Source: Salvia splendens (lineage: Eukaryota; Streptophyta; Magnoliopsida; Lamiales; Lamiaceae). Taken from it: DNA of 64,000 nt. The stretch spans positions 4,836,001 through 4,900,000 of the forward strand of contig NC_056046.1 in NCBI RefSeq assembly GCF_004379255.2, in the 5' to 3' direction. Within the stretch, counting starts at the first letter, position 1. Each line of letters starts with the position of its first letter. The notes beneath the pieces are model-generated. The model saw only the letters and a program-made list of their open reading frames with translations. It was not told where the DNA came from and did no database searches. The translations under genes and the position numbers were made by a program. Shown here one piece after another: positions 323-29,833 of this stretch.

Positions 323-3300
323 ATGAAAATGTCTCAAAATTCACTTGCTCCGCTGCTTCTCTTCTTGACCATCACGATCACAGTCGTAACTAGCAACCCG
401 ACTTACTTTACAGTCGACATCTCTGTCAGCTGCGGCTCAACCGACACTTCTGTATCACGCGGCGGAAGAGAATGGCTAGGAGAAACACAACCAATATTTT
501 CTTCTCTGCTGCAATTAAAGGGCTTGTCGATGACCTCCACAGTCATCCACGAGTTGACCTCTGCTGATCCAGTTCCACATGAGACAGCCCGAATCTCACG
601 TTCCCAGTTCTCCTACCTGTTTCAAGTCAGTCCCGGTCAGAAAATCATCCGCCTTCACTTTAATCCGGCTTCTTACAGAGGCTATGAAGGGCTTGTCGAC
701 TTGTTCACTGTTGAAGCCGGTCCCTTTACCTTGCTGAGTAACTTCAGCGCTTCACTCACTGCTGAGGCTCTTGGAGTGGATACTTTTGTGAAGGAGTTTT
801 GGTTGAACATACAAGAAAACCAACAACTCATCATAAGTTTCACTCCCAGAAGTAGTCAAACATTAGATACGTACGCCTTCATAAATGGCATCGAGATTCT
901 AGGTAGCAATGGGGCCTTTCCTAGTTCGAATCCCCTGCCTCCTTCTCAGGATTCACTATCCGAAACAATCCTAGTTTTCCTTTTATCTCTTGTTCAGAGA
1001 AATGCAACTGCAGCTATTGCAATAGCTGTAATATCCTTATTAAGTATCATTGTTCACACGTTGAGACAATATTGGGAGGAAGATAGCAGCACTAAGGACG
1101 AAAACAAGCCATCACCCAAAGCTGCACGAGTCTGTCGTCGTTTTTCTCTAGCTGAGATCCAACTGGCCACCAAATATTTCAGTGACGAGCGTTTGATTGG
1201 AAGGGGCGGGTTTGGAAATGTCTACAGAGGCGTCATTGATGAAGGCCAAATGACTGTTGCTATAAAGAAGTTAAACCCAAACTCCATGCAGGGGGCACAA
1301 GAGTTTCTGACTGAAATCGAAACACTTTCTGAGTTGCGCCATGTTAATCTAGTTTCACTGATAGGTTACTGCAACGACCACGGGGAGATGATTCTGGTTT
1401 ATGATTATATGTCTGGTGGAACCCTTGAGAATCGCATCTACAAGCCTTCAAGGAAAAGACGCCATGTTGCTTCTATCACTTGGGAACAACGCCTTAACAT
1501 CTGCATTGGGGCTGGCCGGGGGCTAGACTATCTCCACACGGGCCATGGAGTGATACATCGCGATGTGAAGCCTTCAAACATTCTTTTGGATGAAGACTTG
1601 ACAGCTAAGGTTTCTGATTTCGGTCTGGCCAAACCAGAGGACAGAAGCAAGTCAAAAACTCATGTCAGCACAAATGTTAAAGGCACGAGGGGATATTTAG
1701 ACCCACATTATTTCCACACTCGTAATCTAACAAGGAAAAGTGACACATACGCGTTTGGGGTGGTGTTGTTGGAAGTGTTGTGCGGGAGACCGTCGGTGGA
1801 TTTAAGGGTAACGGAGGACGAGCAGATTTTGAGCTTTTGGGTTCATGATAAGAAGAGTAAGGGAGAAGTTGATCAGATTGTTGATCTGAGTTTGAGGGAT
1901 GAGATTTCTGAAAACAGCCTCAAGACATTTGTGGAGGTTGCTGAAAGATGCTTAGAAGACGAACCAAATAATCGGCCAACAATGTCCCAAGTTGTGCAGC
2001 AGCTTGAACTTGCACTTGAGCAACAACAGGAAAACAAACAGATTTCGTTGTCCAATGAGATGGAAAGTTTTTACGAAGAAAATGGACCGTCAGCCAGCAC
2101 AGGGCTGTCATCTATGTCGACTGCGCAATGGAAAAATCTTACTAGCTCCCCAAAAGTGCAGGCTAGCTTCAAGATGGTTAATGCTATGCTATCAAGATTT
2201 TCGCTGCCGAAAATAGGAGGTCACTTATCCAAGGAAAATAAACTTTTATTATCAGGTAATGAAACTGAAATCACCTCACCACTTCTTTATTCTAGTTATT
2301 ATTTTCTGTTGCTTTAATTTAATTCCAACAAAACTAATGAAAGGTATAAAATGTGTGTGACCACAGAAATCGGAGAAGCAAATGTAGGATTGACCATGTT
2401 TGATTGGTATACACTTTCAGCTGCTACTAATCGTTTCTCCTCCTCGAATAAAATCGGAAAGGGTGGATTTGGTCGAGTTTACAAGGTGACTGTTTTTCTA
2501 GTTTACACCACTTATCTGTTCTTTGTATCTGATATAGGCCTTGCGATCTTTCGACTGATTAAACCATTCGTGTTGAATAGGGTGTGCTACCTACAGGACA
2601 AGTAGTTGCTGTGAAAAGGCGTTCGACATATACCCCACAATCAGTCCAAGAATTCAAATGTGAAGTCCTTTTGCTTCCCAATCTTCACCATCAAAACATT
2701 ATCAAACTACTTGGCTACTGCATTCATAGCAAAGAAAAGCTGCTTGTATACGAGTTCATGGAAAACAAAAGTCTAGATACATTTATCGGTTGGTTTCTTC
2801 ATAATCTATACACCATTTCATTTATCTCTCTGTCTCAACAAGATATTAGTAATACTATATATCAGTGCTATTGAGCTACAACTTTACATGATAAATTTCA
2901 ATTGTAGATGATGAGAAGAAGCGAAACTTTCCATGGCCAGTACGATTCAACATCCTAAAGGGGATAGCTCGAGGACTAGTTCATCTACATCAACATTCTG
3001 GAGTGCGAGTCATTCATGGAGATCCCAAATCAAGCAATATATTACTGGACCGTGAGATGGTTCCTAAAATTTCAGACTTCGGATTTTCCAGGACTTTGTT
3101 ACAGCATCAATACGAACTAGAGACAGGAATTGCTGAAGGCACCCCGTAAGCATCAGGACGCGTTTCGTCCCCTTCTCTTACATTAACAACTGTGTTAATC
3201 ACTTATGTGTTTTGCAGCTGTTATATATCTCCGGAGCGTTTGAAGCAAGGTAGGGTTTCGGTAAAATCAGATGTTTACAGCTTCGGAGTTGTGATACTGG

Positions 3301-3652
3301 AGATGGTGAGTGGGCGGAGAGCATGGGAATCTTACTCAGTGAATAAGATGAACCTTATTGATTATGTAAGTCTCCAACTTATGTTTAGTAAAAATCTTAA
3401 AATCTACACATATAATCATGTCTTACTAGTGCTATATATAGAGTGATTTGTGATGAGAGAAATGAATGTTATGTTTAGGCACGGAAGCTGCGGAGTGAAG
3501 GGAAAGTATTAGAGGTGGTGGATGCGACAGTTGGTGGGACGGATGAAGCGCTGAGGTGCATTAAAGTCGGGCTGCGCTGCACCTTAGAGCATCCAGACGA
3601 CCGGCCAGACATGCCTACCGTGCTTAAAACGCTGGAAGGAGAAGCTCTCTGA
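323..3652 (+). CDS. FERONIA-like receptor with two kinase domains (unit A, intact)
   Basis: Exons: 323-2255, 2367-2485, 2581-2788, 2908-3145, 3218-3365, 3479-3652; every junction is GT-AG and phases join to 939 residues. Residues 1-24 are a signal peptide. Residues about 29-195 are one malectin subdomain; the usual second subdomain is absent. TM is about 230-247. Kinase 1 (about 292-565) is CrRLK1L-type with IGRGGFG, VAIK (K315), HRD (D414) and DFG (D432). Kinase 2 (about 655-935) is CRK/DLSV-like in sequence and intron positions, with GKGGFGRVYK, VAVK (K696), HGD in place of HRD (D792 kept) and DFG (D810). Both domains keep the catalytic residues, so both could be active; kinase 2 would be a non-RD kinase. 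Expected location is the plasma membrane. Retaining the first intron (2256-2366) gives a stop at 2317 and a 664-residue single-kinase receptor. FERONIA relatives bind RALF peptides or cell-wall pectin; whether this one does is unknown. Confidence 0.8.
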
Positions 3653-3975: not shown

Positions 3976-6900
3976 TTACAGATGCATAGCAGACTCCAAA
4001 GCGCGAACAACATTTCTCATAGCTGGCCGATCAACCCCTTGAAGATCCACGCATGCAATGGCTGTCTCAGCAAATATCTTCAAGCATTCAGGAGAAATAT
4101 CGCCATTGAGGCTAGAATCAACTATCTCTTCAAGTTTTCCTTTCCTGAAACATGATGCTGCCCAGGTCGCCAAGTTCCTCCGCTCTATTTCTAAGCTTAT
4201 ATCCATTGCTTTCCTACCACACAAAATTTCAAACAACACCACACCATACGAGTATACATCAGACTTTTCTGTCAACCGAGAAGTGTGGAAGTACTCAGGG
4301 TCCAGGTAACCTAAGGTGACTTGCGCCAATGTGTTAAAATGGGTGTCACGCTCAGCTGAGGGCCCTGCTCTTGACTGGGAAAAATCAGACAGTTTGGCAA
4401 TCCATCTTTCATCCAGTAGTATACTGGTGGACTTAATATTGCGGTGGATAATAGGGTATTCAAAACCAGTATGAAGATAGCTTAATCCCTTGGCAGCATC
4501 TATACAAATTTGAAGGCGTTGTTTCCATGTGAATGGGGAATTCCCCGAGTTGTGGAGATGGTCAAATAACGTGCAATGCGCCATGTAATCATAGACTAAG
4601 ATCGCCTCTCCATTTTCATGAATGCAGTAACCAAGTAGATTAATGATGTTGTGGTGATTGAATCTGGAAGTCAAAAAAATCTCATTTTTGAACTCATTGA
4701 GATCAAGCCATGATAAAGCAAACCTTTTAATGCCAACTGTCTGTCCTGTTGGTAATACAGCCTATATAAAATTAGAATTAGTATATTTGGGGATAAATTT
4801 CTTCACCATAGTGTAAGTGAAAATAAAGATGATATAACTCTAGATAAAGTCACCTTATACACAGAACATCGTACGCTATCTCCAATCTTCTGTGAATCGG
4901 AGAACTGATTGGTTGCAGTGGCAATGATGGTCAGATCAAACTTTGGCAATTTAATGTATGATGCACTAAGTTCTGCAATATTCCAGTATTTACTAAAGTC
5001 AGCAGATGCACAACCACAATGTGATATAAAAATGATTGAAATTGATCTTGTCAGAATGAATGCAAACCTGATATTAAGCCCATCAGCTCTTTTCTCTTAG
5101 ATGGTTTTATCTTGTTCCTGAAGGCACCCCAAGTCCAGAATCTCAACGGCTGGCGTGATTTTGGTTTCTTCCCATCTCCTTTAGCAGTTGGAGAGTAACA
5201 TGAGTTAGTCTGTTTGGTAGGAGAAGTAAATGTCTTTTCCTCAGTATCTTCAGAGGATAGACTGTCTTCAATAGATGGATAGACATCATTAGCAACGTTA
5301 TCAGCTCGTTGTTTACTCTCTTGCTGATCAAGTGCAAACTCAAGTTGTACCACAACTTGAGCCATGGTAGGCCTTTTCTCTGGCTCATCATGCAAACATC
5401 TATTAGCAATCTCAACGAATGCCTTCAGGCTGCTTACTGAGATTTCGTCTCTGAGGGAAGAATCAACAATCTGATCAACTTCTTCCCTATCAATCTTATC
5501 TCGAGCCCACCTGGTTAGAATCCGCTCATCCTCTATTGCAAATGAATCAATTGCTGGTCTCCCGCACAATGCCTCCAACAAAACCACACCAAAAGCATAT
5601 GTGTCGCTTTTCCTGGTAAGCTTTTGAGTGTTGAGGTAATATGGATCTAAGTACCCAAATGTTCCTTTAACCTTTGTGCTTACATGGCTCCGCAACCTGT
5701 CTTCAGGTTTAGCCAAGCCGAAATCTGAGACCTTGGCTACAAAATTTTCATCAAGAAGGATGTTCGAAGCCTTTATATCACGATGTATGACCCTATGACC
5801 AGTATGAAGATACTCAAGTCCTCGTGCTGCTCCAACACAGATATCCAACCGTTGCTTCCAGATGAGAGAAGAATGATTACTGTTGTACCTTCCAAGTTTG
5901 TAGAGGTGGTCAGCCAGTGTACCACAAATCATATACTCGTAAACAAGAATCATTTCCCTTAGCTCACTACAGTACCCAATCAGAGAGACAAGATTGATAT
6001 GTCGAAGCTCGGTGAGTGTTTCAATCTCTGTAAGAAACTCAAGTGCCCCCTGCCTGGAATTCGACTTTAGCCTCTTTACAGCAACTGTTGTTTGTCCCCT
6101 ATCAATGAAGCCTTTGTAGACATTACCGAATCCACCCCTTCCAATTAGAAGTCCAACGTCGAAATTTCTAGTGGCTAATTGGATATCAGCTAGTGAAAAG
6201 CGGCGACAAAGTCTCTCAGCCTTGGCTGATGGCTTGTGTTCATCCTCGATGCTCCTTGATTCCCAAATCTCCCGCAGTTCATGAAGAATGATACTCAATA
6301 GAGATATTGCAGCTATTGCAAGAGTTGCACTCGCATTTTGATAACCAAGAACAGAGATCAAAATTTGGAGAATACGAGACCGTGGCTCCTGAGGTGGAGG
6401 CATGGGGTTTGGACTAGCTAGACTGTTGTCAGGATTGCTCAGCTTAACTATTTCAAATCCTGCAAGAACTTCAAGTTCACCAAATGATTGGAGGGAAATC
6501 AAGATCTCACTTCTGCCATTTTGTTTCCGCCCTTTCATCTCCACCATGTAGTCCTTATACAAGACAATGTTATCTTGATCCCTTCCCCTCACAATTTCAG
6601 CTATCATTTCATTGATAAGGATTTTAAACATTGCACCACCAACGTCTGCGTTCTTGAAATGAAGCCGGATCAAGTACCTGAATCCCACCTCCACCGGCAC
6701 TTTCCATGTTTTATTTCTGGCCTTCTCTGCACTTCGTGTAGCCCATTTCGGAAAGACTCCATCAAAACCCTCAGCAGATTGAGCAGGATCCGGTTTGATA
6801 TGTAGCCGATGGACTATCTCAAGTGCAGTGTTGTCATCAACACAAACCATGGAATTCTCACCAACAACTCGGAGTCCAATTTCACCACCCTGAAAGTAGG

Positions 6901-6976
6901 AAAGAGATGCAGGCACGGATACAATCTCAATGCCATTAATGAAGGCATATGCATCCTTTATTGATTTTATAGTGCT
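3976..6976 (-). CDS. FERONIA-like receptor with kinase plus pseudokinase (unit B, main body)
   Basis: Exons on the minus strand: 6976-5068 (5' end cut by an insertion), 4972-4854 (119 nt) and 4761-3976. The first exon opens with the malectin motif AYAFINGIEIV, then malectin subdomain 2, a TM (about TLAIAAISLLSIIL) and a CrRLK1L kinase with intact VAVK, HRD and DFG. The 119-nt exon joins in the same phase as in unit A and carries a degenerate P-loop (IGDSVRCSVYK). Kinase 2 keeps the lysine (GIKRF) but has HRN for HRD and DFS for DFG, so it lacks the catalytic Asp and is predicted to be a pseudokinase. Past the GYC motif it resembles CrRLK1L kinases (LVYDYMAHCTLFDHL), not the CRK type of unit A, and it lacks the CRK introns. 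An in-frame TGA sits just upstream of the first exon. The true N-terminus lies at 8199-8714 beyond the insertion, so the gene may be dead or may need unusual splicing. Confidence 0.7.
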
Positions 6977-8198
6977 CTGCTCTCAACATATTTTTGTCTT
7001 TTCGTTACAAAATATTTCTGGAAAATATATTTTTCTTTGCTCTATACTCAATTGTCAATAAGGACAATTTGAGACTTGTCGGCAACTGCTGTTTTCAAGA
7101 TTAAAACATTAGTTTGAAGATTAAATGACTTCAGGGATTAGACTGACTTAAACATGGCCTATATAGTACCACCCCATATGATTGTAAATTAGTAACACTT
7201 TATTCTTGAATCAACTCAGTTAACTGAGGAAATTGAAGCAATTTGATTATAATCACAGGCCATTGCAGTAACCTCTTGCATCCCTGAAGCATGGCCTGCT
7301 CTCATTCTGGCTCCGTCTTCTTTACATCTCCATTGGGGTCTGTAAGTGATATCTTATATGCCTTTGCATAAAAATATTGTGTTTTCACACTAATCTTTTT
7401 GGTGTATTGCAGATAATTCAACAATGGCTTGCTTGATATTCCACCTTCAAATCTGGAGTCAAGTTGTTCTATAATGCAAATTGTGTGTGTGGGTATTTTT
7501 TCGTGGGAGCATTTCAACTACCTCTCCCAAATGAGTCTCCATATTGAAAATGAAAATACAGCTGCATACTTTAATAGTTGATTCAGATTGTTGTCATATC
7601 AATAGTTGCTTCATCTATACAATATGGGAATACCTTCAGATTGTTGTCTTGACTAGATTATTTTGGATGTTTGAAGTATGTCCTCATACATTAGGACTAA
7701 ATGCTGTAAGCGTGGACCATGTCAATTATGAAATAGTGTAATTTGTCCCACATCGAAAGTGGAACATAAACATTCAAGGATGTCTCTATAAAAGAGAGAC
7801 AACCAAGAATTATTTTATCCCACATCGAAAGTGGAACATAAACATTCAAGGATGTCTCTATAAAAGATAGACAACCAAGAATGATTTTGTCCCACATCGA
7901 AAGTGAAACATAAAACATTCAAGGATGTTTCTATAAAAGAGAAACAACCAAGAATGATTTCATAAATTCGAAAGCCCATTAAATATATATGGGTTAAGAA
8001 GAAATATATATGGGCTAAGACGCATGAGGGAGATGCGTCTCTCCCTAAGACGCATGACCCTCATGCGTCGTTAAAAAAAAACGAAAAAAAAAGAGAGACG
8101 CATGACCCTCATGCGTCTCTATGAAAGACGCAGAGACGCATAATCGTCATGCGTTGTTGATTTTCTCGAGAGAAAGTTATGATGAGTTGAATCAACAA
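6977..8198. mobile_element. 1.2-kb insertion splitting the unit B ectodomain
   Basis: On the minus strand, malectin coding sequence stops at 8199 (after FSPE) and resumes at 6976 (before KDAYAFINGIEI); relatives are continuous here. The insert is AT-rich, has no transposase or reverse-transcriptase ORF, and contains a three-copy 72-bp repeat followed by short palindromes. CCCACATCG followed by TATAAAAG recalls small plant LTR/TRIM elements, but no paired LTRs, inverted ends or clean target duplication were found. Its 8.2-kb edge carries rearranged duplications of the flanking codons. The class is therefore undetermined. Confidence 0.55.
7742..7962. repeat. 72-bp tandem repeat, three copies
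   Basis: CCCACATCGAAAGTG occurs at about 7747, 7819 and 7891, exactly 72 bp apart. Each copy continues with a conserved ATTCAAGGATG, then CTATAAAAGA and ACAACCAAGAAT. Each unit therefore carries a TATA-like box. Confidence 0.85.
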
Positions 8199-8245
8199 CT
8201 CAGGAGAGAAAGTTATGATGAGTTGTTGATTTTCTCGAGTGCTCA
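8015..8245. repeat. Short palindromes and rearranged host codons at the insertion edge
   Basis: GACGCATGA/TCATGCGTC palindromes recur around 8050-8130, including two GACGCATGACCCTCATGCGTC hairpin cores. At 8170-8240, GAGAAAGTTATGATGAGTTG occurs twice in direct orientation together with two copies of GTTGATTTTCTCGAG. The malectin codons ENQQLIITF therefore appear duplicated at the break. Confidence 0.7.
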
Positions 8246-8714
8246 AACAAAACTCCTTAGCAAAAGGAGCATCAGCAGTAAGTGAAGCACTGAAATTACT
8301 AAGCAAGGTAAAAGGTCCAACTTCAACAGTGAAAAAATCTCTCAACCCTTTGAAACCACTGTGTTGAGTGGGATTGAAGTGAAGGCGGATGATTTTCTGA
8401 CCTTTATTGAGCCGAAATGCATATGAGAATTGCGAAAGGGAGATTCTAGCCGTCTTGTACGGAACAGGATCAGCACAGCTCAAGCGATGGATGGGCTCTG
8501 ATGCGGCTGGTGATCCCCTTAGCTCTAGAAATGGGGAGGGTTTAGGGCGTAGGTCTCCAAGCCATTGGCGACCGTTGCGTGCTGCAGAAGCTCCGGTTGA
8601 TCCGCAGTTGATCGAAACATCATCTGTGAAGTCAGCTTGATTATTAGAACAATAGGAGAATGTGATGAAGAAGCAGAGGAATGGCAAAGCAACTGAAATA
8701 AGAGAGGAATCCAT
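8199..8714 (-). pseudogene. Detached N-terminal part of unit B (signal peptide and malectin 1)
   Basis: The ATG at 8714 starts a signal peptide (MDSSLISVALPFLCFFITF), followed by DVSINCGSTGAS and the first malectin subdomain through ENQQLIITFSPE. It is close to gene A residues 25-175. The next expected segment (AYAFINGIEI) is 1.2 kb away at 6976, past the insertion. The open frame runs about 30 codons into the insert and stops at 8109. I chose this Met, not the upstream one at 8843, because it directly precedes a good signal peptide. Confidence 0.7.
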
Positions 8715-9750: not shown

Positions 9751-11005
9751 ATGAATTCAACATCCAGCAAAGCGTCCCTGATACTGAAACTGATCTTCCA
9801 GCTAACACAAGGGAGCCAACAATTGCCTCAACATATCTACAGAAAGCCACTCTGTCGAGAAAACAACAAACTAACAGCAATGTTGTTAGTGCTCATCATG
9901 TTCCATCAGAAAAGAAACTCGCGAGGAATGCATTAATGAATAAGCCACCACGGCCTTGGCTCTGGGGGGAACTTTGGAACAGAGTTAAACCATCCAAGAA
10001 AAGTGAGTTGTTTTCATCTGGAAAGCACCATAGTAAAACCAATATCCATATTCAAGTTTCTGCTGGAAAAGCAGAAATTTTTGAAGCAGACATACCACTG
10101 CCCAAGTTTAGTTGGGCTACAATTGCAGCTTCCACCAATCGTTTCTCATCTTCAAATATAGTCGGTCGTGGAGGATCTGGCAAAGTTTATAAGGTAAGTT
10201 GTTTCTTGAATGACCAATCGTTATAACAAGTTTCATTTTCAAAACCTCCCCCTAACTGAACCATGCATTTTTATAGGCTGTGCTACCTACAGGAAAAGTA
10301 GTTGCAGTTAAAAGGCAATCACCAGCATCCTCACAAGCTCTACAGGATTTTAAATCTGAGATTCTTTTGCTTTCAAGTCTTCAGCATCGGAACGTCATAA
10401 AATTACTAGGCCATTGCACTCATAGAGATGAAAAGTTGCTCGCATATACGAGTTCATGGAAAATAGAAGCCTAGAGACTTTTATAGGTTGGTTGGTGACT
10501 TTCACTAAAATCAGATGTCTATAGTTTTGGAATTATAGTCCTAGAGATTGTAAGCAGCAGGAGAGTCTGGAATATAGCTTATGGGGAGGCCATGAAATTC
10601 CTTCCTAGCTATGTAAGTACCAATGAAAAAAACATGCATATAGTTATGTAAATACAAAGTAATGATCAGTCTATGAACCACGGTCGTTTTCTAGGCGTGG
10701 AAGCTCTGGAGCGATGCGAATCCATTAAAACTAGTAGACAAATTACTTGGAGGTGCATTTCCAGTGGATGAAGCACTAAGATGCATTCAAGTTGGTCTGC
10801 TGTGCACACACAACGGGACCCAAACTGCAGACCCGAGATGCCTTGTGTTCTCAAGATTCAGGAAGGCGATGAGCCACAAGTGGAGCCGAAAGTAGAGGTA
10901 CAAAAGCCACCACTCCCTAGAGAAGATGTACCAACTGGTGGTGTACACAGTAATGAACCTGTCAGCAACGCAACGATGGAGCTCATTGAAACGCTGGAAA
11001 GATGA
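9751..11005 (+). pseudogene. Linker plus second-kinase relic (unit C)
   Basis: The frame opens with a polar linker, then RPWLWGELWNRVKPSKKSEL, the tail that precedes kinase 2 in units B and D. The 119-nt exon equivalent (10075-10193) reads PLPKFSWATIAASTNRFSSS and a P-loop VGRGGSGKVYK. In this copy the intron in front (10021-10074) starts GAAAG where GTAAG is expected. It is 54 nt and stop-free, so it reads through. A second exon (10277 onward: VLPTGKVVAVKR) has a 2-bp insertion near 10443. The exon with HRD and DFG is missing. C-lobe remnants follow (KSDVYSFGIIVLEIV near 10515; last exon from 10695) with another frameshift near 10815. No kinase activity is expected. Confidence 0.75.
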
Positions 11006-11539: not shown

Positions 11540-11965
11540 GATTATGGCGGGAAAAGGTGCATTTGCTCGCGTCTACAAGGTGACCATGTCAAGGCTGATT
11601 ATTTCCCATTTTTATTCCTTTCGATAATGCAATGAGTTTATCCTTCGCCAAACTAATTCTAATCTGAATCTTCGTATAGGTTGTGTTATCCACAGGAAGG
11701 ACAGCTGCAGTTAAGAGATATTCTTCATCACAAGACCAATTCACTTGGTTCAAAAATGAGATTCATTCAGTTTCCAGTCTCCATCAGCGGAGCATCATTA
11801 AACTACTTGACATTGCATTCACGACAAAACAAGGACGCATTTCAATTTCTAATGGATTGATAAATAGAGAACATAACATTTTTTTTCTTCAATGTAATGG
11901 AACATTTGCACATTGGTCAAGAGGCAAGTCTGAAAATGATTCACCGAGCCCAAGTGGTAGGCCAC
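11540..11965 (+). pseudogene. Second-kinase fragment (unit E), partial copy of unit D
   Basis: The end of a 119-nt-type exon (GTCTACAAG to 11579), its intron, and the next exon from 11680 (GRTAAVKRYSSS..FKNEIHSVSSLH) match unit D at 14087-14350, introns included. After about 11830 the copy jumps into sequence equal to the following intron of D (ATGTAATGGAACATTTGCACA), so an internal piece is lost. A 29-bp sequence with GAGCCCAAGTGGTAGGCC recurs at about 11944 and 12013 and marks the join to unit D. Confidence 0.7.
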
Positions 11966-12019: not shown

Positions 12020-14754
12020 AAGTGGTAGGCCACAAAGCTCTTGTGTCTATAGACAATACCACTGCACTTGAATTAACAGAGTTAACATGAAACAGTATCT
12101 AGTATCATTTTATGATGAATTTGATGATAAAGCAAAGGAATACGAGATCAACGGTCTTACCTGGAATACACCGGTGGATGTTGGCTTTAGGTACTTGGTC
12201 AGGATTCATTTCTGCAACCTAGGTCTCCATGGAGAGAGACTCAAAGTCCTTATTGGTCAAGTAGTTGTGGATGCTAACATTTTGATACAACTGGATGATG
12301 AATATGGTATCATAGAGTACATAGACTATGTAATGGCAGCTAAAGGCCGAAAAGAGGAGGGTAAACAAGAGCTCTTGATTTCCCTGCAGTATAATGATGA
12401 GTTTGTTGGTGCACATCAACTCATCAAGGGATTTGAGATATTCAAACTGAGCAATCCTGATAACAATCTTGCCAGTCCAAATGTCTTCCCTTCGAAAAGT
12501 GATTCTGCCCCTCGGATTATCAACAACTTAACGCCTATTCTGTCTCAAGGAAATGCAAATACAACTCTTGCAATAGCTATACTTGCTCTGGTGAATATAA
12601 TTGTCTATAAGCTGCGGGAAATCTATGAAGGAAGGAGCGTTACGGAGGATGAAAACATACGATCAGCAAAGGCTGAACGAGTCTGTCGATGTTTTTCTCT
12701 GGCTGAGATTCAATCAGCCACCAAAAACTTCAGTGAAAGGTTACTCATCGGAAGGGGAGGATTTGGTAAAGTTTACATTGGATCTATTGATAATGGGCGA
12801 GAGACTGTTGCCATAAAGAGGTTAAAATCTAACTCAACACAAGGGAAACATGAGTTTTTGACAGAGATTGAAACACTATGTGAGCTCCGACATATTAATC
12901 TTGTCTCTCTAATAGGCTACTGCAGTTATCACAGGGAAATGATTCTTGTTTACGAGTACATGCCCAGTGGCACACTGGCTGATCACCTCCATGATATGCC
13001 AGGGAAGGCAATGTTTCATGTTCTCTCACTTGGAAGAAACGCCTATATATCTGCATAGGAACCGCCCGAGGATTAGATTATCTCCACACAGGCAACAAAG
13101 TCATACATCGCGATGTTAAAGCTTCAAACATCCTCTTGGATGAAAATCTCATAGCCAAGGTCTCAGATTTTGGGTTAGCTAATCATGAAGATCGAATCAA
13201 GCTACAGAGCCATGTTAGCACAAGAGTTAAGGGTACACATGGGTACATGGACCCATATTATCAAAATACTGGCAAGTTGACAAGGAAAAGTGACGTATAT
13301 GCCTTTGGTGTAGTGTTGCTGGAAGTATTGTGCGAGAGAAAAGCACTAGGCCAAAGATTTGGAGAGGAAGATTTCTATCTCATCATATGGGCTCTAAACA
13401 AGATTAAAGAGGGAGAGGTTAATAAGATTGTAGCTTCGAGTTTGTTGGATGAAATCCTACCAGATAGTCTGAAGGTATTTGTTGAGGTTGCTGAAAGATG
13501 TTTGCACAACGAACCAAAGCAAAGGCCAACGATGGCTCAAATTGTGGTTCAACTTGAGTCTGCTCTTGAGCTTCAGGAGAGTGGAAAGACTGCTGAACCA
13601 AATCACGTAGCACTTGTTGATAATGATGTATGTCCAACAAATGAACATATGATGTTCTTTGCAAACACTGCGCTATCAGCAGAAGCCGCTGCAGATGTAC
13701 ATGTTGACAGTCCTCCTCCTATGGAACAAACTAATCGAAATCACTTTCTAGATGGAGAAGAAGATTGGAGAGAACCAAAATCGTATAAGGGACATTTTTG
13801 GGCATTGGATACACTGTGGAACAGATTAAAACCATCCAAGAGAAAAGAAATTAGCTTAGCATCAGGTATTAACTTGTTCCAAACACTTTCTATCATATGC
13901 TAATTCTTCAACCCATGATTAAATCACCAATCTGTATACTCCAAGCGTAAGATAGAAGTGTGCAATGATTTTGCAGAATTTGGTGAGGCAGACATAAGAG
14001 TGCCCAAGTATGAGTTTAGCAAGCTTGCGGCTGCTACCGATCTCTTCTCCTATTCCCATGAGATTGGAACAGGTGGATCAGCTCGAGTCTACAAGGTGAC
14101 TCTGTCAAGGCTGATGATTTCCCTTTTTTATTCCTTTAGATATGACACTGGGAAATGAGTTTATTCTTCTCCAAACTAATTCTTATTTGAATCTTCGTAT
14201 AGGCTGCATTACCCAGAGGAAGGACAGTCGCAGTAAAGAGATATTCTTCTACACGAGACCATGTCCAATGGTTCAAAAATGAGATTCTCTCAGTTTCCAG
14301 TCTCCATCACCAGAACATCATTATACCGCTTGGATATTGCATTCATGACAAAACATGTATGCTTTTGTATGAGTTCATGGAGAACGGAAGTTTAGACAGA
14401 TATATATTTGGTTGGTGATTTAGACTCTTTCCCTAGTTTTTTCAATGGATGGATAAATATAGAATCTAACATTTTTTTCTGTTTCTTGAATGTAATGGAA
14501 CATTTGCACATAGAAGAAGAACGACGTCGTAGGTTTCGGATGGTCAAATCGCTTCAAAGTCATTATTGGAATTGCTAAAGGAGTTATCTATCTTCATCAA
14601 GAGTCAAGTCCGAAAATGATTCACAGGAATCTTAACCCAACCAATATATTACTGGACAATGAGATGAATATCAGGCTTTGGCTTTGGCTTAGTCAAAATT
14701 ATTGAAGATGACCAAACACAAGAGTCCACCCGTGTTATTGCGACCACGTATTTT
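12020..14754 (+). pseudogene. FERONIA-like tandem kinase pseudogene (unit D)
   Basis: The first malectin subdomain is missing. A relic SIDNTTALELTEL ends in a stop near 12090. From 12087 a 323-codon frame covers malectin 2, a TM (TLAIAILALVNIIVY) and the N-lobe of kinase 1 (IGRGGFGKVY, VAIKRL). A 1-base loss near 13003 (GGG where GGGG would keep frame) breaks it. The downstream frame continues through HRD, DFG and the tail to the donor at 13865. The 119-nt exon is 13977-14095 and the next exon begins at 14205. Kinase 2 then decays: HRN for HRD, NP for the catalytic-loop Lys region, GFG for DFG, and at least two frameshifts near 14530 and 14680. The last two exons are absent. Confidence 0.75.
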
Positions 14755-15248
14755 TTTGATATATGCATCCTTTCCTTCTTTCCACACAAGAGTCCAAGCA
14801 TTTGTTCAGAGGTCTTAGTAGCTTCCAGTTGGCATGTTTATGTTAAATTTAGTACCCTTTGAAGAATTCAGTTACATTCTGCTTTTTTCACACTACGAAT
14901 GCACATGCATATCCTTATTTTAAATTCTTACTATATAAGATGATAGTCATTCTAAATTTAAATTTAAACTTAAACTTTTAGCTATCACTATTTAGTACGA
15001 AGACTACGTCAAAAATGGTGTGATGCAATGACGATAAATGGTGAATACTTAGGGAACACGTGTCAAAATTTGATAAGAGACAACTACAAGACATAACAAG
15101 CTCAATTATACTCCATATAACCCTCCAAACTGACTAGTCTTTGTAGGACCATTGACCTGCAAACTTACAAGTCTTTGCTCATGCAATGATAAGAGCTTTT
15201 ATGCCTCAAATTGAAACTAAACATTTTTTCTAATCAAACTCAACGACC
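14755..15248. other. Upstream region of the FERONIA-like gene
   Basis: AT-rich sequence that should contain the promoter and 5' UTR of the gene at 15249. An ATATAA near 15116 is a weak TATA candidate. No ORF or repeat of note. Confidence 0.35.
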
Positions 15249-17729
15249 ATGAAGTTCCATACTAGTATTAATTATCTCCTCCTTTTCCTCCTCCATATCA
15301 TCCCAGCAACTACAGTGCCTGCTTACACCCCAGCTGACCGTATACTCCTCAACTGCGGTGCCTCAGGAATCTTCAACGACACCAGCCACCGGAGTTGGGT
15401 GGGCGATACCGATTCTAAATTCATGCCAGAAAATGCGACCATATCTTTAGCCTCCTATATGGATCCTAGTGTTTCTCCAGTCCCTTATCACACCGCTCGT
15501 CTTTTCACTAACTCTTTCACCTACACATTTCCCATCAGCAAAGGACAGAAATTCCTTCGCCTCTACTTCTACCCCAACATTTACTCCCACCAAGACACTT
15601 CTACATCTCTCTTCTCTGTCTCCGCAAATTCCTTTAATCTACTAACCAATTTCAGCGCATTCCTTTACTCACAGAATTCTTCACAACCATCTTTCATGAA
15701 AGAATTCATCATCAATATCAAAGATCATAGTGTAAAACTAGCTTTAACTTTCTTACCAGAGCCATCCTCTACTGGTTTCGTGAACGGCATTGAAATCGTT
15801 TCAATCCCGGATGAACTCTACTTACGTAGAAATGAGGTCATTAAATACGTGGAGGAGAACAGTCAAATATTCAATCTGGATGGCAATACAGCTTTTGAGA
15901 GTCTTTACAGGCTAAACGTTGGTGGAGGCAGAGTTGATATTGAATACGACAGCGGCATGAACCGGGTGTGGTACCCAGATGATAACTACTTAGTCAGCAA
16001 AGCTGCCGGTAAGACTCTCCACGCTGACGACAACGTTGAAGTTACCTCACTTTCACACACTGCTCCAGATATAGTATACAAAAGTGCTAGAGTGACCGCG
16101 AATAACGCCATCATCTTGAATTGGGAGTTCCCTGTGGATTCAGGGTTTTACTATCTCATCAGGTTACACCTTTGTGAATTTATGCCGGGTGTAACCAAGT
16201 CAAAACAAAGGACTTTTTCGATATCCTTGAACAACATTGCTGCGGATATTGCAGCCGACGTTGTCTTATGGGCCGGCGGCCCTCTAATTCCCACCTTCAA
16301 GGACTACGTAATATGGGCACCTGATTATAGTGGGAAACAAAACTTGGTTCTGTCTGTGTTTCCTGTCAACGCACAAGATCCACATAATCGTATTGCTTTC
16401 TTGAATGGCCTTGAAATATTCAAACTCAATCATACCAACGGGAGCCTAGCATCCGCCAACCCTGAGCCGGCGGTGAACCATTTTCAGCTGATAATGAAGG
16501 AGAAGAAAAGTCGAGGATTGTATGTAGTTATTAGTGTTACGGTGACTGTGGTCGTCGGCGTGCTTGCTGTGGTTGGAGTATTGAGTTTTCTGATTTATCA
16601 AAGGCTGCATAAAGTGAAGAAGCAATCTTATGGCAGTGTCGCCCAGTCATCCTTCCTACCTCCTTCAACCACTTCAAGATCCACAACTGGTACTACTGCT
16701 GCCGATTCGCACCCTTGGAATTCCTGCAGATATTTCCCTCTCGCTGAGATCAAAGCTGCAACATCCAACCTAGATCGAAACTCCATCATCGGGAAAGGAG
16801 GATTCGGGTGCGTGTATATGGGGGTCATAGACGACGGCGCCACCACTGTGGCGATCAAACGGCTCAACCCGTCGTCCAATCAAGGGGCTCGCGAGTTCCT
16901 AACCGAAATCCACATGCTGTCGAAGCTAAGGCACCTCCACTTAGTATCACTTATCGGCTACTGTGACGAAGAAGGCGAGATGATCTTGGTGTACGATTAC
17001 ATGGCCCACGGCTCTTTACATGACCATCTCTACAGCTCCCACAAACCCCCTTTATCATGGAAACAGCGCCTCCAGATCTCCATGGGCGCTGCAAAAGGAT
17101 TGCACTATCTCCACACCGGGACTGAACACGCCATCATACATCGCGACGTCAAGTCCACTAACATCCTACTCGACCACAACTGGATCGCCAAGATATCCGA
17201 TTTTGGACTGTCCAAAATGGGAGAGTCGAACGATTCGTTCACGCATATCAGCACCAACATCAAGGGCACCTTCGGGTACTTGGATCCAAAATACCTATCG
17301 ACTCATCAGCTGACAAGAAAATCAGATGTGTATGCATTTGGAGTGGTTCTGTTCGAGCTTATTTCTGGAAGAGCAGCGGTGGATGTGAGGCTGGATGAGG
17401 AGCAGCATAGCCTGGCTGGATGGGCTCGATTTTGTGTACGAGAAGGACAAGTGGACGGGCTCATTGACAGAAACCTTGAGGGGCAGATTTCAGCAGGTTG
17501 TTTGGATGTGTTTGTAGGAATAGCAGGGAGGTGCATACACATTCAGCCACTGGAAAGGCCTAGCATGGCTGATGTGGTGATGGGCCTCGAATTAGCAGCA
17601 GCGTTACAGGAGACAACGGTGGTGGAAGATGATGATAATGATGCCGAAGGGATTCACAGCGATCAGAGCCAGGTGTTTGTTTCTATGGATGTGATATGTG
17701 GCACAAATTGTTCAGAATCAACCGGTTAG
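15249..17729 (+). CDS. FERONIA-like CrRLK1L receptor kinase (single kinase)
   Basis: Intronless 826-residue frame, as is usual for CrRLK1L genes. Signal peptide 1-23; complete two-part malectin-like ectodomain about 30-400 (ILLNCGASG at the start, FVNGIEIV near 177, FLNGLEIFKLN near 384); TM about 424-449; kinase about 510-785 with IGKGGFG, K537 (VAIK), D633 (HRD) and D651 (DFG), then a short acidic tail. All catalytic residues are present. FERONIA-clade proteins sit in the plasma membrane and act in RALF-peptide and cell-wall sensing in growth, reproduction and immunity; which member this is cannot be decided here. Unlike units A-D it has no 119-nt exon or second kinase, and it looks like the conserved parental type. 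Confidence 0.88.
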   Translation: MKFHTSINYLLLFLLHIIPATTVPAYTPADRILLNCGASGIFNDTSHRSWVGDTDSKFMPENATISLASYMDPSVSPVPYHTARLFTNSFTYTFPISKGQKFLRLYFYPNIYSHQDTSTSLFSVSANSFNLLTNFSAFLYSQNSSQPSFMKEFIINIKDHSVKLALTFLPEPSSTGFVNGIEIVSIPDELYLRRNEVIKYVEENSQIFNLDGNTAFESLYRLNVGGGRVDIEYDSGMNRVWYPDDNYLVSKAAGKTLHADDNVEVTSLSHTAPDIVYKSARVTANNAIILNWEFPVDSGFYYLIRLHLCEFMPGVTKSKQRTFSISLNNIAADIAADVVLWAGGPLIPTFKDYVIWAPDYSGKQNLVLSVFPVNAQDPHNRIAFLNGLEIFKLNHTNGSLASANPEPAVNHFQLIMKEKKSRGLYVVISVTVTVVVGVLAVVGVLSFLIYQRLHKVKKQSYGSVAQSSFLPPSTTSRSTTGTTAADSHPWNSCRYFPLAEIKAATSNLDRNSIIGKGGFGCVYMGVIDDGATTVAIKRLNPSSNQGAREFLTEIHMLSKLRHLHLVSLIGYCDEEGEMILVYDYMAHGSLHDHLYSSHKPPLSWKQRLQISMGAAKGLHYLHTGTEHAIIHRDVKSTNILLDHNWIAKISDFGLSKMGESNDSFTHISTNIKGTFGYLDPKYLSTHQLTRKSDVYAFGVVLFELISGRAAVDVRLDEEQHSLAGWARFCVREGQVDGLIDRNLEGQISAGCLDVFVGIAGRCIHIQPLERPSMADVVMGLELAAALQETTVVEDDDNDAEGIHSDQSQVFVSMDVICGTNCSESTG

Positions 17730-18899: not shown

Positions 18900-19092
18900 A
18901 TCCACAATGGCGCCTAGCGCACCGCCTAGCCGAGCGCCAGCGCTAGGCGGTCGCTAGGCGAACCATTGCAGCTTCCGAAAACCGCCGAGCGGTTTTTCGG
19001 AATTAAAAATCGCCTAGCGCTAGGCGGTCGACGGGCGCTGGGCGATCCGCTCGGCGCCATTGCAGCGTCGGGATCGCCCAGCGCATCGCCCA
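18900..19092. repeat. GC-rich subterminal palindromes of the Harbinger element
   Basis: CGCCTAGCG, its complement CGCTAGGCG and CGCCCAGCG variants recur many times within 190 bp. Subterminal repeats of this kind are typical transposase-binding regions; binding is inferred. Confidence 0.6.
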
Positions 19093-19129
19093 GCGGTTTT
19101 TTTATTTTTTTTTTAAATTTTCGAGACAC

Positions 19130-19137
19130 TATATATA
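19130..19137 (+). promoter_or_regulatory. TATA box of the transposase gene
   Basis: TATATATA lies about 95 bp before the transposase ATG at 19226, with a pyrimidine-rich leader between. Confidence 0.5.
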
Positions 19138-19225
19138 CGCGATTTGCACTTCATTTTCATTCACACCACTTGTATTAACGAGTACTCTCTCTATCTTAAT
19201 TTCTATACAAGATCAACACCGAGAA

Positions 19226-20534
19226 ATGAGTAACGCGGGTGATGGCAGTGGAGGTAGTGGGGGGGACGCTGAGGAGTACGAACGTCGAATGACCGAAGCG
19301 TTTGAGGTATATACCAACCGCGGGATAGACCAATGGATGCAAAGAGCCTTGCAATCGGCGGTACCTCGACCTCGGCCAGTTGTCTATCGCCGACAAGCGA
19401 TTGATCGTGATCACGTAGCTGCACATCAGCGCCTATACGAAGACTACTTCGCAGAGGAGCCGCGGTTCAACGCCAACATTTTCAGACGACGTTTTAGGAT
19501 GAGCAGAGCCATGTTTATGCGTATTGTTAACGCCTTGGAGCAGCGATATCTGTATTTCCGCTTCAGGCACGATGCTGCTGGCAAACCCGGCCATACACCA
19601 ATTCAAAAGTGCACTGCGGCAATCCGGCAGTTGGCTTACGGAGTACATCCACATCGGTGAGAGGACTTCCCTGGAATGTTTGAAGTATTTCTGTCAAGCC
19701 GTGATTGAAGTATTCGGTGATCAGTATCTCCGAAAGCCTACCCACGAAGATTACCGGGATCTGCTGAGGATGCATGGGGAGCAGCATGGGTTCCCGGGAA
19801 TGTTAGGCAGCATAGATTGTATGCATTGGGAGTGGAGAAACTGTCCCGCTGCCTGGAAGGGGTTCTATACGACCGGCTACAAGGGAAAGAATCCCACGAT
19901 GATCCTCGAGGCCGTAGCTGATTACCGGCTGTGGATTTGGCATGCGTATTTTGGGATAGCCGGTTCGAACAACGACCTAAACGTCCTCAACTCGTCGCCC
20001 CTATTCAACGAGCAGTGCCAGGGCGTCGGTCCGGCCATCAGTTTTGTCGCCAAAGGCAACCGGCATGATATGGGCTACTACTTGGCGGATGGGATATACC
20101 CTAGGTGGCCCGTCTTTGTGAAGGCGATCCGATGCCCAAGAGATGAGAAGAAGGCCTACTTTGCGGCACAGCAGGAGTCCGCGCGCAAGGACGTGGAGCG
20201 CGCATTTGGTGTGCTCCAGGCTCGATGGGCGGCGGTTAGGGGTCCAACGCGTTTGTGGCACGTCGACTGCATTGCTGATATAATGTACGCATGTATTATC
20301 ATGCACAACATGATTGTCGAAGATGAAGGTGTACAACTGACGGATTGGGCCAACGACGATAATGAAGCCGGTCCAAGCCACGGCGTGGCCGTCCCCAACG
20401 CACGGAGTGGGGTACCTCACGATGAAGCCGGCCTCCTCCAAGCACATGCCGACATGCGGCAAACGGAAGCTCATATTCGACTCCAAAAGGATTTAATTGA
20501 AGAGTTATGGGCGCGGAGGACTGCTCGAAGTTAG
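19226..20534 (+). pseudogene. Harbinger (ALP1/HARBI1-like) transposase, frameshifted
   Basis: Two frames together make one transposase. 19226-19660 gives the N-terminal part (RRRFRMSRAMFMRIVNALE, a typical start for these proteins). From about 19641 a second frame (EYIHIGERTSLECL) runs to 20534. The sequence between LAYG and EYIHIGE is shortened, so a small deletion not divisible by three lost several residues and the frame. The DDE core is visible: the first Asp in GSIDCMHW, the second in SNNDLNV, the Glu in VERAFGVLQARW, with IMHNMIVEDE near the end. As it stands no full-length transposase can be made. Confidence 0.85.
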
Positions 20535-29026: not shown

Positions 29027-29833
29027 CAACGGCGTATCCACGTGGGAACAAGGGTACAGTTGTACCTCCAAAACTTTCAGCTTAATACCATTATTGATGT
29101 AGCATTTCAAAAAATTGCAAGTGATCTGGTGGTAAAACTCTAGCATTTTCTGTTAATTGGCTGTGATCAAATCCTTCCACTGTTGTGCTATGGATTTATT
29201 TCTTTTTCTGTTCCATTTTCCCTTTATATTTTATACACTTCTTTCATTCCTCAATTTTTTCTTTCTTTATCTTATTTTTGATTTATATGAATGTATAGTT
29301 TGTATTTATCTCAATTTGTACTATGTGCTTTGTCCAAATAATTTATATTAATGAAATATTTGTCCATCATTTCTTCCTTTTTTTATTATCTAAATTTGTA
29401 TTCTAATGTTTTCGTCAAATAATTTATATGATTGGACAATTTGACGATTCTTTCTTCATATATTTTTTAGTTTTTGTTTAGATAAACACTATAGAATTAT
29501 CTCAATTGTTAGATCACATCGAATGAACATATTGTAACACGAATTGTTAGTTTAATTGTGATATAAAAACGTGTTATTTATATTAAAATGTGTGATTTTT
29601 TTAATATTATATAATCGTTATTTAGATAAAAAAAATATACAAGTATCTCATTTATTATATTCAACTTAAATAAATTTGTTGTATCACGAATTGTTTGTTT
29701 AATTGTACTATAAAATAAGTGTTATTTATTGAATAATATTTTAGGATGTAGTACTATTTTGACTTTTGAATGAGTTATATAATTATTTTTCAAATATTTC
29801 GTACCCCGAATCAAATATACTGATACGCCACTG
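29027..29833. mobile_element. Non-autonomous hAT element (807 bp)
   Basis: The 8-bp direct repeat CTTAGAAT lies at 29019-29026 and 29834-29841. The left end CAACGGCGTATC and the reverse complement of the right end (CAGTGGCGTATC) are inverted repeats of hAT type. The interior is AT-rich with no transposase frame. Similar copies of ATTAAGATATCAACTTAGAAT flank both sides, suggesting it landed in a short pre-existing duplication. Confidence 0.85.

Follow-up and report, generated by a model that had tools for sequence, protein, structure and literature searches.

Plant tandem kinase proteins (TKPs), among them WTK1/Yr15, Rpg1, Sr62 and RWT4, carry two kinase domains per chain, mostly of RLK-Pelle origin and often as a kinase with a pseudokinase, and their origin through fusion of different kinases is known. 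In the portions of the literature consulted, published tandem-kinase resistance proteins are mainly from cereals and nearly all are without a membrane segment; the 92 TKPs surveyed in one study are described, in the sections available, as having neither a transmembrane (TM) segment nor further conserved domains (PMC6170490). WTK7-TM (Pm36) is membrane-associated: its 667 residues comprise kinase I, kinase II, both of the LRR_8B subfamily, and a C-terminal TM segment, all three of which are needed for mildew resistance, and the excerpts consulted name no ectodomain (PMC11006675). Tandem kinases clustered near OrDeb2 in sunflower and lettuce are of CrRLK1L type, with each half homologous to Arabidopsis CrRLK1L-type kinases, and are presented in the available part of that report without TM segment or ectodomain (PMC8866362). 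CrRLK1L receptors such as FERONIA have a TM segment, a single kinase and two malectin-like halves (ML-A and ML-B); in FERONIA, RALF23 and LLG2 sit next to the ML-B half, according to the part of the source consulted (PMC12034098).

The window analysed here, 64,000 nucleotides of Salvia splendens DNA (NC_056046.1, positions 4,836,001 to 4,900,000), contains a gene, gene 1, whose model encodes a single predicted membrane-type protein with ML-A, a TM segment, an intact CrRLK1L kinase (K1), a predicted-disordered linker and a DLSV kinase (K2). Two kinases in one chain are common to the gene 1 model and the TKPs, whereas the signal peptide, malectin-like ectodomain and TM segment set it apart from the 92 surveyed proteins. 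Like WTK7-TM, gene 1 would be a membrane-associated tandem kinase, but its kinases belong to two families. It shares CrRLK1L kinase type, two kinase domains and clustering with the sunflower and lettuce genes, and signal peptide, ML-A, TM segment and K1 family with FERONIA and its kin, from which it differs in lacking ML-B and in having a second kinase. Its parts are as follows.

323..2255, + strand: exon 1, encoding signal peptide, ML-A, TM segment, K1 and linker
about 323-397, + strand: exon 1, signal peptide (hydrophobic start, called by eye)
about 398-922, + strand: exon 1, ML-A, matching FERONIA MalA
1007-1063, + strand: exon 1, TM segment (hydropathy)
1133-2020, + strand: exon 1, K1, CrRLK1L type, FERONIA-like (322 bits)
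2021-2255, + strand: exon 1, K1-K2 linker
2367..2485, + strand: exon 2, start of K2 with glycine-rich loop; phase-1 join LLS-E with exon 1
2581..2788, + strand: exon 3, K2 N-lobe with VAVK lysine and alpha-C glutamate
2908..3145, + strand: exon 4, K2 catalytic loop HGDPKSSN (non-RD) and DFG
3218..3365, + strand: exon 5, end of the K2 activation segment (SPE) and C-lobe
3479..3652, + strand: exon 6, end of the K2 C-lobe and stop

As the preliminary description proposed, the six exons (323-3652, + strand) join in phase to one product of 939 codons without internal stop, and all five introns (111, 95, 119, 72 and 113 nt) run GT..AG. Pfam recognizes two kinase stretches (PF00069, 320 bits), and both domains are complete within the one reading frame. 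The best PDB match of K1 is the FERONIA kinase, which places it in the CrRLK1L type. Retention of the lysine, catalytic Asp and DFG Asp in both kinases, also claimed earlier, is confirmed, with the addition that K2 reads HGD instead of HRD and is a non-RD kinase. Gene 1 thus departs from the first-defined tandem kinase-pseudokinase proteins in two respects, having ML-A and a TM-like segment and keeping Lys/Asp/Asp in both kinases.

The ectodomain matches the first half, MalA, of the FERONIA ectodomain in the PDB (residues 30-201, E 1.3e-30). The ML-B profile built for this analysis finds no match in gene 1, and ML-B is missing in the gene-1 clade. Pfam Malectin_like scores 14.7 bits, below its cut-off of 24.5 bits, which leaves the PDB match and the relatives as the basis for reading this part as malectin-like. 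Hydropathy marks one TM-like segment at residues 229-247; together with the MalA match and the hydrophobic start, it upholds the signal peptide, malectin subdomain and TM segment first read from the letters. With the ML-B half absent, the gene 1 product is unlikely to sense RALF-LLG in the manner of FERONIA, and such sensing was rejected as the default reading.

Both score and tree place K2 nearest the DLSV kinases, measured against 21 reference domains from five families only. Against the best SD1-type reference, K2 of the S. hispanica protein reaches 266 bits, versus 217 bits against the best CRK reference, and in the tree the CRK references, a small set of three of which two are themselves degenerate in catalytic residues, lie outside the clade formed by 50 Lamiales-type K2s. 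Of the former label 'CRK/DLSV-type', the DLSV part therefore stands, and assignment to the CRK (DUF26) kinases is rejected on both score and tree placement. An origin as a recent copy of K1 is likewise rejected (35% identity). The idea of a receptor-anchored tandem kinase built from two RLK families is supported; that of a FERONIA-type sensor coupled straight to an output kinase of CRK type is not supported in that form, given the missing ML-B, the DLSV character of K2 and the frequent catalytic losses and family changes of K2 among relatives.

The architecture has close counterparts within Salvia. S. hispanica P0001 is 95% identical to the gene 1 product, and proteins of S. splendens and S. 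miltiorrhiza are 77% identical; across P0001, P0002 and P0003, identity to gene 1 is 97, 70 and 77% in K2 and 98, 92 and 89% in K1, with HGDPK conserved in K2. Because these counterparts in three Salvia species share its domain order, the architecture is not a chance arrangement, and an isolated oddity or assembly artefact is rejected. In the predicted structure of P0001 both kinases are folded with mostly good confidence, the linker (572-635) has pLDDT below 50, and a pTM of 0.42 means that the model does not give the relative placement of K1 and K2. P0001 is named 'putative receptor-like protein kinase At5g39000' in the database; this and the other Salvia and Lamiales entries with the architecture carry only automatic-looking names, and the literature searched yielded no study devoted to them. 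Within the gene-1 clade, K2 keeps every tested catalytic residue except the RD arginine; the activation-segment end is missing from P0003, and in P0039 the Lys and Glu positions are gapped.

The search for relatives with malectin, kinase and kinase that had been suggested as a check returns ML, TM, CrRLK1L kinase and a second kinase in 94 of 219 relatives, from at least 36 named species, among the best matches listed. These are the best 120 of 7,793, of 7,942 and of 6,457 matches and form no census; the third search added just P0219 to the 219 classified proteins. Two kinases occur in 130 of the 219, of which 36 were dropped because they lacked an ML match, a TM-like segment or a short linker. 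Most relatives are predicted gene models, their species names were copied manually from the listings, and the species were then assigned to plant orders. A motif in the K1-K2 linker was present in 24 of the 94 and was not counted as evidence. On these predicted proteins, the DLSV fusion is found across the Lamiales.

K1 is steady across the 94 relatives listed and K2 is not. Lys/Asp/Asp are kept in 91 K1s, lost in one and gapped in two; the corresponding K2 counts are 34, 48 and 12 (one MAFFT alignment, with gapped rows neither kept nor lost). K2s are of DLSV, CrRLK1L, RPK2 or hybrid type. On the careful K1 tree the type changes at least 13 times (least possible, three), the hybrid needing one change; the quick tree requires 14, two of them for the hybrid. 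Trees include 78 of the 94, with 14 omitted for a class margin below 30 bits and two more for a short K2. Clustering of the RPK2 label on the K1 tree barely exceeds that of shuffled labels (56 of 500 shuffles as low). RPK2-type K2s reach 92% identity with real RPK2 kinases, yet the DFG Asp is present in one of six, versus five of five RPK2 references. In the K2 tree, a quick tree only, 50 of 52 DLSV-type K2s, all except two from Cinchona, form one clade (SH-aLRT 99) separate from 17 other DLSV kinases. Two of those 17, P0171 (Lonicera) and P0191 (Tagetes), likewise come second in a protein, after a kinase of CrRLK1L type, and their placement among the other DLSV kinases suggests that separate DLSV fusions may exist.

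Gene 1 lies in a cluster with the following members.

3976..8714, - strand: gene 2, convergent paralogue, with ML-A exon at 8714-about 8200
about 8198-6950, - strand: insertion in gene 2
to 5068, - strand: gene 2 ML-B, TM segment, K1 and linker
4972-4854 and 4761-3976, - strand: gene 2 K2 exons
9753..10990 (approximate ends), + strand: truncated copy with K1-K2 linker, K2 N-lobe and a deletion to the K2 end; no catalytic loop
11550..11832, + strand: small K2 N-lobe fragment
12072..14680 (approximate ends), + strand: gene 3, pseudogene with partial ML-B, TM segment, K1, linker, intron and K2
15249..17729, + strand: gene 4, single-kinase CrRLK1L of 826 aa with whole ectodomain

The K2 of gene 2 joins a DLSV N-lobe to a FERONIA-like CrRLK1L C-lobe and has lost residues of the Lys/Asp/Asp set (catalytic Asp to Asn, DFG to DFS); the ectodomain of its S. 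hispanica counterpart, P0016, is unbroken. Gene 3 has a K1 frameshift near 13020, and its K2 (HRN) breaks off. No second kinase was found downstream of gene 4, and a tRNA scan of this DNA returned none.

Since K2 often loses catalytic residues and changes family across relatives while K1 stays intact, a bait, regulator or passenger fits it better than a general output kinase. In gene 1's Salvia clade the catalytic residues are nonetheless retained. The reading we tentatively prefer, just short of holding it probable, is a tandem-kinase receptor of the membrane in which K1 is stable and active and an exchangeable K2 serves as sensor or bait. K1 would carry the signal and be anchored in the membrane through an ectodomain without the RALF/LLG-facing ML-B, and K2, resembling the kinase portion of a different surface receptor, would be held beside it on a flexible tether. 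A pathogen effector disturbing K2, or a partner binding it, would then change K1 activity; K2 may still phosphorylate in the gene-1 Salvia clade, while elsewhere catalytic residues are often missing from it or it belongs to another family. The kinase-plus-pseudokinase plan of the first-defined TKPs, as given in the part of the source consulted, was counted towards the sensor or bait reading (PMC6170490). Bait is not forced, because the Salvia-clade K2 lacks only the RD arginine among the tested residues. That the product is an immune receptor or decoy, as proposed earlier, is possible and a reasonable guess.

Three other accounts were weighed. An active relay, in which K1 phosphorylates and activates K2 as the output kinase, the role given to K2 in the preliminary description, draws on the near-identity of K2 to that of S. 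hispanica, on the retention of glycine loop, Lys, alpha-C Glu, Asp, Asn and DFG in the gene-1 clade, and on the association of non-RD kinases with immune receptors in the sections consulted (PMC6170490); the far weaker catalytic conservation of K2 than of K1 among the matches listed (Lys/Asp/Asp losses in 48 versus one of 94) makes it unlikely. The same frequent decay would suit a neutral passenger, with local recombination in the kinase cluster adding kinase tails that decay with little effect. The broken copies (frameshifted gene 3 and two fragments), the presence in Penstemon smallii, Phlomoides and Buddleja of RPK2 genes whose locus tags lie near those of tandem-kinase genes, on a contig of equal length, and a K2 N-lobe pN/pS of 0.66 (upper bound 0.99) between genes 2 and 3 point this way, and a barely needed K2 tail would likewise produce swapping and decay. 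Single-clade DLSV K2s kept in frame from Olea to Salvia, the catalytic residues of the gene-1 clade and K2 N-lobe pN/pS of 0.36-0.51 between gene 1 and three paralogues (upper bootstrap bounds 0.54-0.72) argue against it, leaving it decidedly unlikely.

That K1 and K2 belong to separate genes or transcripts which prediction alone has joined is very improbable. An AATAAA lies at 2237, ahead of intron 1, and the frame continued into intron 1 meets a stop after about 20 codons, so a K1-only product by intron retention is possible. Against separation, K2 comes with neither ectodomain nor signal peptide, genes 1, 2 and 3 all have the phase-1 LS-E join, with the same residues there in P0001, P0008 and P0182, and the 3,822-base contig of P0182 is intron-free at all five positions, as joined cDNA would be.

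The findings describe an asterid tandem-kinase family built on a receptor scaffold, with one kinase constant and the other replaced. A broader and rather doubtful proposal is that these are clade-wide surface receptors resembling integrated-decoy NLRs, their conserved active CrRLK1L kinase paired with an exchangeable captured C-terminal kinase (DLSV, RPK2, CrRLK1L or lobe-swapped hybrids), partly perhaps from genomic neighbours such as RPK2, that evolves as effector bait. The repeated K2 exchanges are natural replicates for testing tandem-kinase function. If K2 is an active relay, the protein would be a receptor with a built-in second-stage kinase; if K2 is bait, the integrated-decoy principle known from NLRs would also operate in surface receptors.

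The exons of gene 1, the tandem-kinase receptor gene, join as the preliminary description had claimed: all six yield one product of 939 codons with zero internal stops, and the five GT..AG introns measure 111, 95, 119, 72 and 113 nt. Pfam places two kinase stretches in this product. Among solved structures, the first kinase (K1) is best matched by FERONIA (322 bits) and the second (K2) by SYMRK (197 bits) and BAK1 (190 bits); the 60 structure chains shown for K2 include none named as a CRK or an S-locus kinase. The ectodomain resembles FERONIA's MalA half (residues 30-201, E 1.3e-30), and there is one TM-like segment at residues 229-247. Gene 1 sits in a cluster with three paralogues and two fragments, at these window positions:

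323-2255, 2367-2485, 2581-2788, 2908-3145, 3218-3365 and 3479-3652: the six exons of gene 1
8714-3976, opposite strand (-), tail to tail with gene 1: gene 2, of the same plan as gene 1
3976-4972, (-): K2 of gene 2, a lobe-swap hybrid
about 9753-10990: fragment
about 11550-11832: fragment
about 12072-14680: gene 3, a pseudogene built like gene 1, its K1 frameshifted
15249-17729: gene 4, an ordinary CrRLK1L with one kinase

Gene 2 has the phase-1 TATCAG|GT junction of gene 1 where the linker meets K2. About 1.2 kb of inserted sequence (about 6950-8198) breaks its ectodomain; this insertion contains three direct repeats of 72 nt as well as short GACGCATG palindromes, and P0016, the S. hispanica counterpart, lacks it. 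Gene 3 keeps the S|E join of gene 1 and has an HRN motif in its K2. Beyond the cluster, a plant transposase (PF04827, 308 bits) lies at 19503-20534, perhaps from 19007; the open frame 19007-19660 overlaps it and may be its start in a different frame. Parts of genes for an amino-acid transporter (PF01490, 35353-37645) and an O-fucosyltransferase (PF10250, 60770-62652) are ordinary neighbours.

Among the matches listed, proteins of this architecture occur in several asterid orders. The 219 proteins examined are the best matches listed of searches begun from gene 1 and its relatives and are not a census; in 130 of them a second full kinase comes after one of CrRLK1L type. The search for malectin + kinase + kinase proteins proposed in the preliminary description finds company for gene 1: among the matches listed, 94 of the 130 have a malectin-like match ahead of the kinase pair, a TM-like segment and a linker of fewer than 260 residues. 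These 94 relatives, apparently automatic gene models for the most part, come from at least 36 species among the matches listed, mainly Lamiales, with others in Gentianales, Solanales, Asterales, Ericales and Cornales. Their K2s type as DLSV in 55, CrRLK1L in 33 and RPK2 in six; at a margin of at least 30 bits the figures among the matches listed are 53, 21 and six of 80. Six predicted malectin receptors from Sesamum, Castilleja, Penstemon and Bertholletia have three kinase domains each (P0121, P0122, P0123, P0124, P0126 and P0213). A predicted Erythranthe nasuta protein, P0062, has two kinases of the kinase-1 type plus other, apparently NLR-like Pfam domains (winged helix, LRR), and is either a fusion of kinase and NLR or a mistake of annotation.

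The closest relative, P0001 of S. hispanica (941 aa), is 95% identical to gene 1 across all 939 residues, and P0002 (S. splendens) and P0003 (S. miltiorrhiza) are each 77% identical. By region, identity to P0001, P0002 and P0003 is 98, 92 and 89% in K1, 97, 70 and 77% in K2, 94, 80 and 77% in the malectin-like half ML-A, and 94, 49 and 43% in the linker; the K2 catalytic loop HGDPK is identical in all three. A profile of the other malectin-like half, ML-B, made from eight relatives, matches 89 of the 94 among the matches listed, its eight source proteins included. No match to it is found in gene 1 or in P0001, P0002 and P0003, and among the matches listed the only other relatives without one are P0039 and an apparently truncated Castilleja model. 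On this profile evidence, ML-B was lost in the Salvia lineage formed by the gene 1 group. An AlphaFold2 model of P0001, made from 32 aligned proteins, gives both kinases a fold of mostly good confidence, leaves the linker (residues 572-635) at pLDDT below 50 and models residues 1-86 poorly; its pTM of only 0.42 is too low to place the domains relative to each other. P0003, named 'isoform X2', is without 21 residues around the end of the K2 activation segment; it may be a splice product in which K2 is switched off. In a further relative, P0182, a 1,216-codon frame takes up 3,651 bases of a 3,822-base contig and runs unbroken across all five gene 1 intron positions, so that it looks like cDNA; its source type (lgn) is presumably assembled sequencing reads. 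The P0182 linker is longer than that of gene 1, and, read by eye, a segment of about 38 residues seems to be tandemly repeated in it.

Among the matches listed, the Lys/Asp/Asp triad of K1 is kept in 91 of the 94 relatives, lost in one and gapped in two; for K2, 34 keep it, 48 have lost one or more of its residues and 12 are gapped there. Of the 21 reference kinases that serve as a control, 19 have the triad in identical columns; the other two belong to the three CRK rows. On a careful K1 tree of 81 rows, K2 type changes at least 13 times (minimum possible 3, shuffled mean 26), with losses included and the hybrid counted as a separate type. The well-supported branches alone force at least seven changes for DLSV, at least eight for CrRLK1L and at least four for RPK2. 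By these counts, K2 is the changeable part of the receptor.

A K2 tree gathers 50 of 52 DLSV-type K2s, gene 1 among them and Olea outermost, in one clade (SH-aLRT 99), with 17 further DLSV kinases standing apart. The remaining two K2s, both from Cinchona, lie elsewhere in the tree, but an arrangement with all 52 in one clade is compatible with the data (p-AU 0.795). In Lamiales, the DLSV fusion appears to be old and for the most part inherited, followed by replacements. Two of the 17 references, P0171 (Lonicera) and P0191 (Tagetes), group with ordinary DLSV kinases. In both proteins a kinase of CrRLK1L type precedes the DLSV kinase, so repeated origins of DLSV fusions within asterids are possible.

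In the K2 of gene 2, the N-lobe scores best to DLSV kinases (margin 10 bits) and carries the VYK intron, and the intronless C-lobe scores best to CrRLK1L kinases (margin 109 bits). Identities taken segment by segment fit this split, and FERONIA is matched at about 290 bits. The catalytic Asp and the DFG glycine are both gone. The same hybrid occurs in P0016, P0015 (S. miltiorrhiza) and an incomplete S. splendens protein, P0041; P0005 of Perilla has the pattern with a weak N-lobe margin (5.4 bits). The careful K1 tree unites P0005, P0015, P0016 and gene 2 (bootstrap 99, SH-aLRT 79), and on a quick K1 tree the hybrid type needs two changes. As the hybrid is common to relatives that group together on the careful tree, it looks inherited rather than like an assembly error of the window.

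P0004 (Paulownia) has a K2 with 92% identity to RPK2 kinases; the other RPK2-type K2s among the matches listed are P0009, P0013, P0061, P0087 and P0219. Only one of the six keeps the DFG Asp, versus five of five RPK2 references. Capture from a neighbouring gene is a possibility for these kinases, with proximity judged by locus tags and contig sizes. RPK2 and tandem-kinase tags lie close together in Penstemon smallii (014736 and 014747-014758), Phlomoides (029113 and 029128-029145) and Buddleja (Bualt04G0135900 and 0133700-0134700), and the two are on equal-sized contigs in S. miltiorrhiza, Sesamum indicum, Actinidia eriantha, Lactuca and Bertholletia. Against capture, the RPK2 and tandem-kinase entries listed for Paulownia, the plant whose fusion prompted this comparison, and for S. 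splendens, Cinchona and Cuscuta are on contigs of unequal size. In the window, no RPK2 gene was found, only kinase-domain cross-matches.

With synonymous sites near saturation and several partners being decayed copies, so that constraint on the gene 1 K2 is shown only roughly, pN/pS is 0.27-0.35 for K1 among the window paralogues, 0.36-0.51 for the gene 1 K2 N-lobe against three other copies (upper bootstrap bounds 0.54-0.72) and 0.66 for the N-lobes of genes 2 and 3 (upper bound 0.99). The gene 1 K2 would thus be under constraint, roughly judged and weaker than on K1.

A 2025 survey by Reveguk et al. reportedly covers some 2,700 tandem kinases from 104 species, close to half of them with a TM; the malectin-receptor group may therefore already stand in its tables. 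Full-text searches of open-licence papers on tandem kinases with malectin, CrRLK1L or FERONIA turned up no study of the group, as judged by title and the opening of the abstract. A FERONIA study places the LLG2-RALF23 pair beside MALB, reports two MALB mutations that prevent rescue of the RALF23 response, and describes pectin fragments bound by MALA and by MALB (PMC12034098). According to two further papers, some tandem kinases need a helper NLR (PMC12830362), and WTK7-TM requires both kinases and its TM (PMC11006675). The sequences show the architecture, its conservation, the loss of ML-B and the turnover of K2. In the working proposed for these receptors, K1 would signal, ML-A may still contact the wall, and K2, less probably a relay in Salvia or a passenger, would serve as a tethered sensor or bait.
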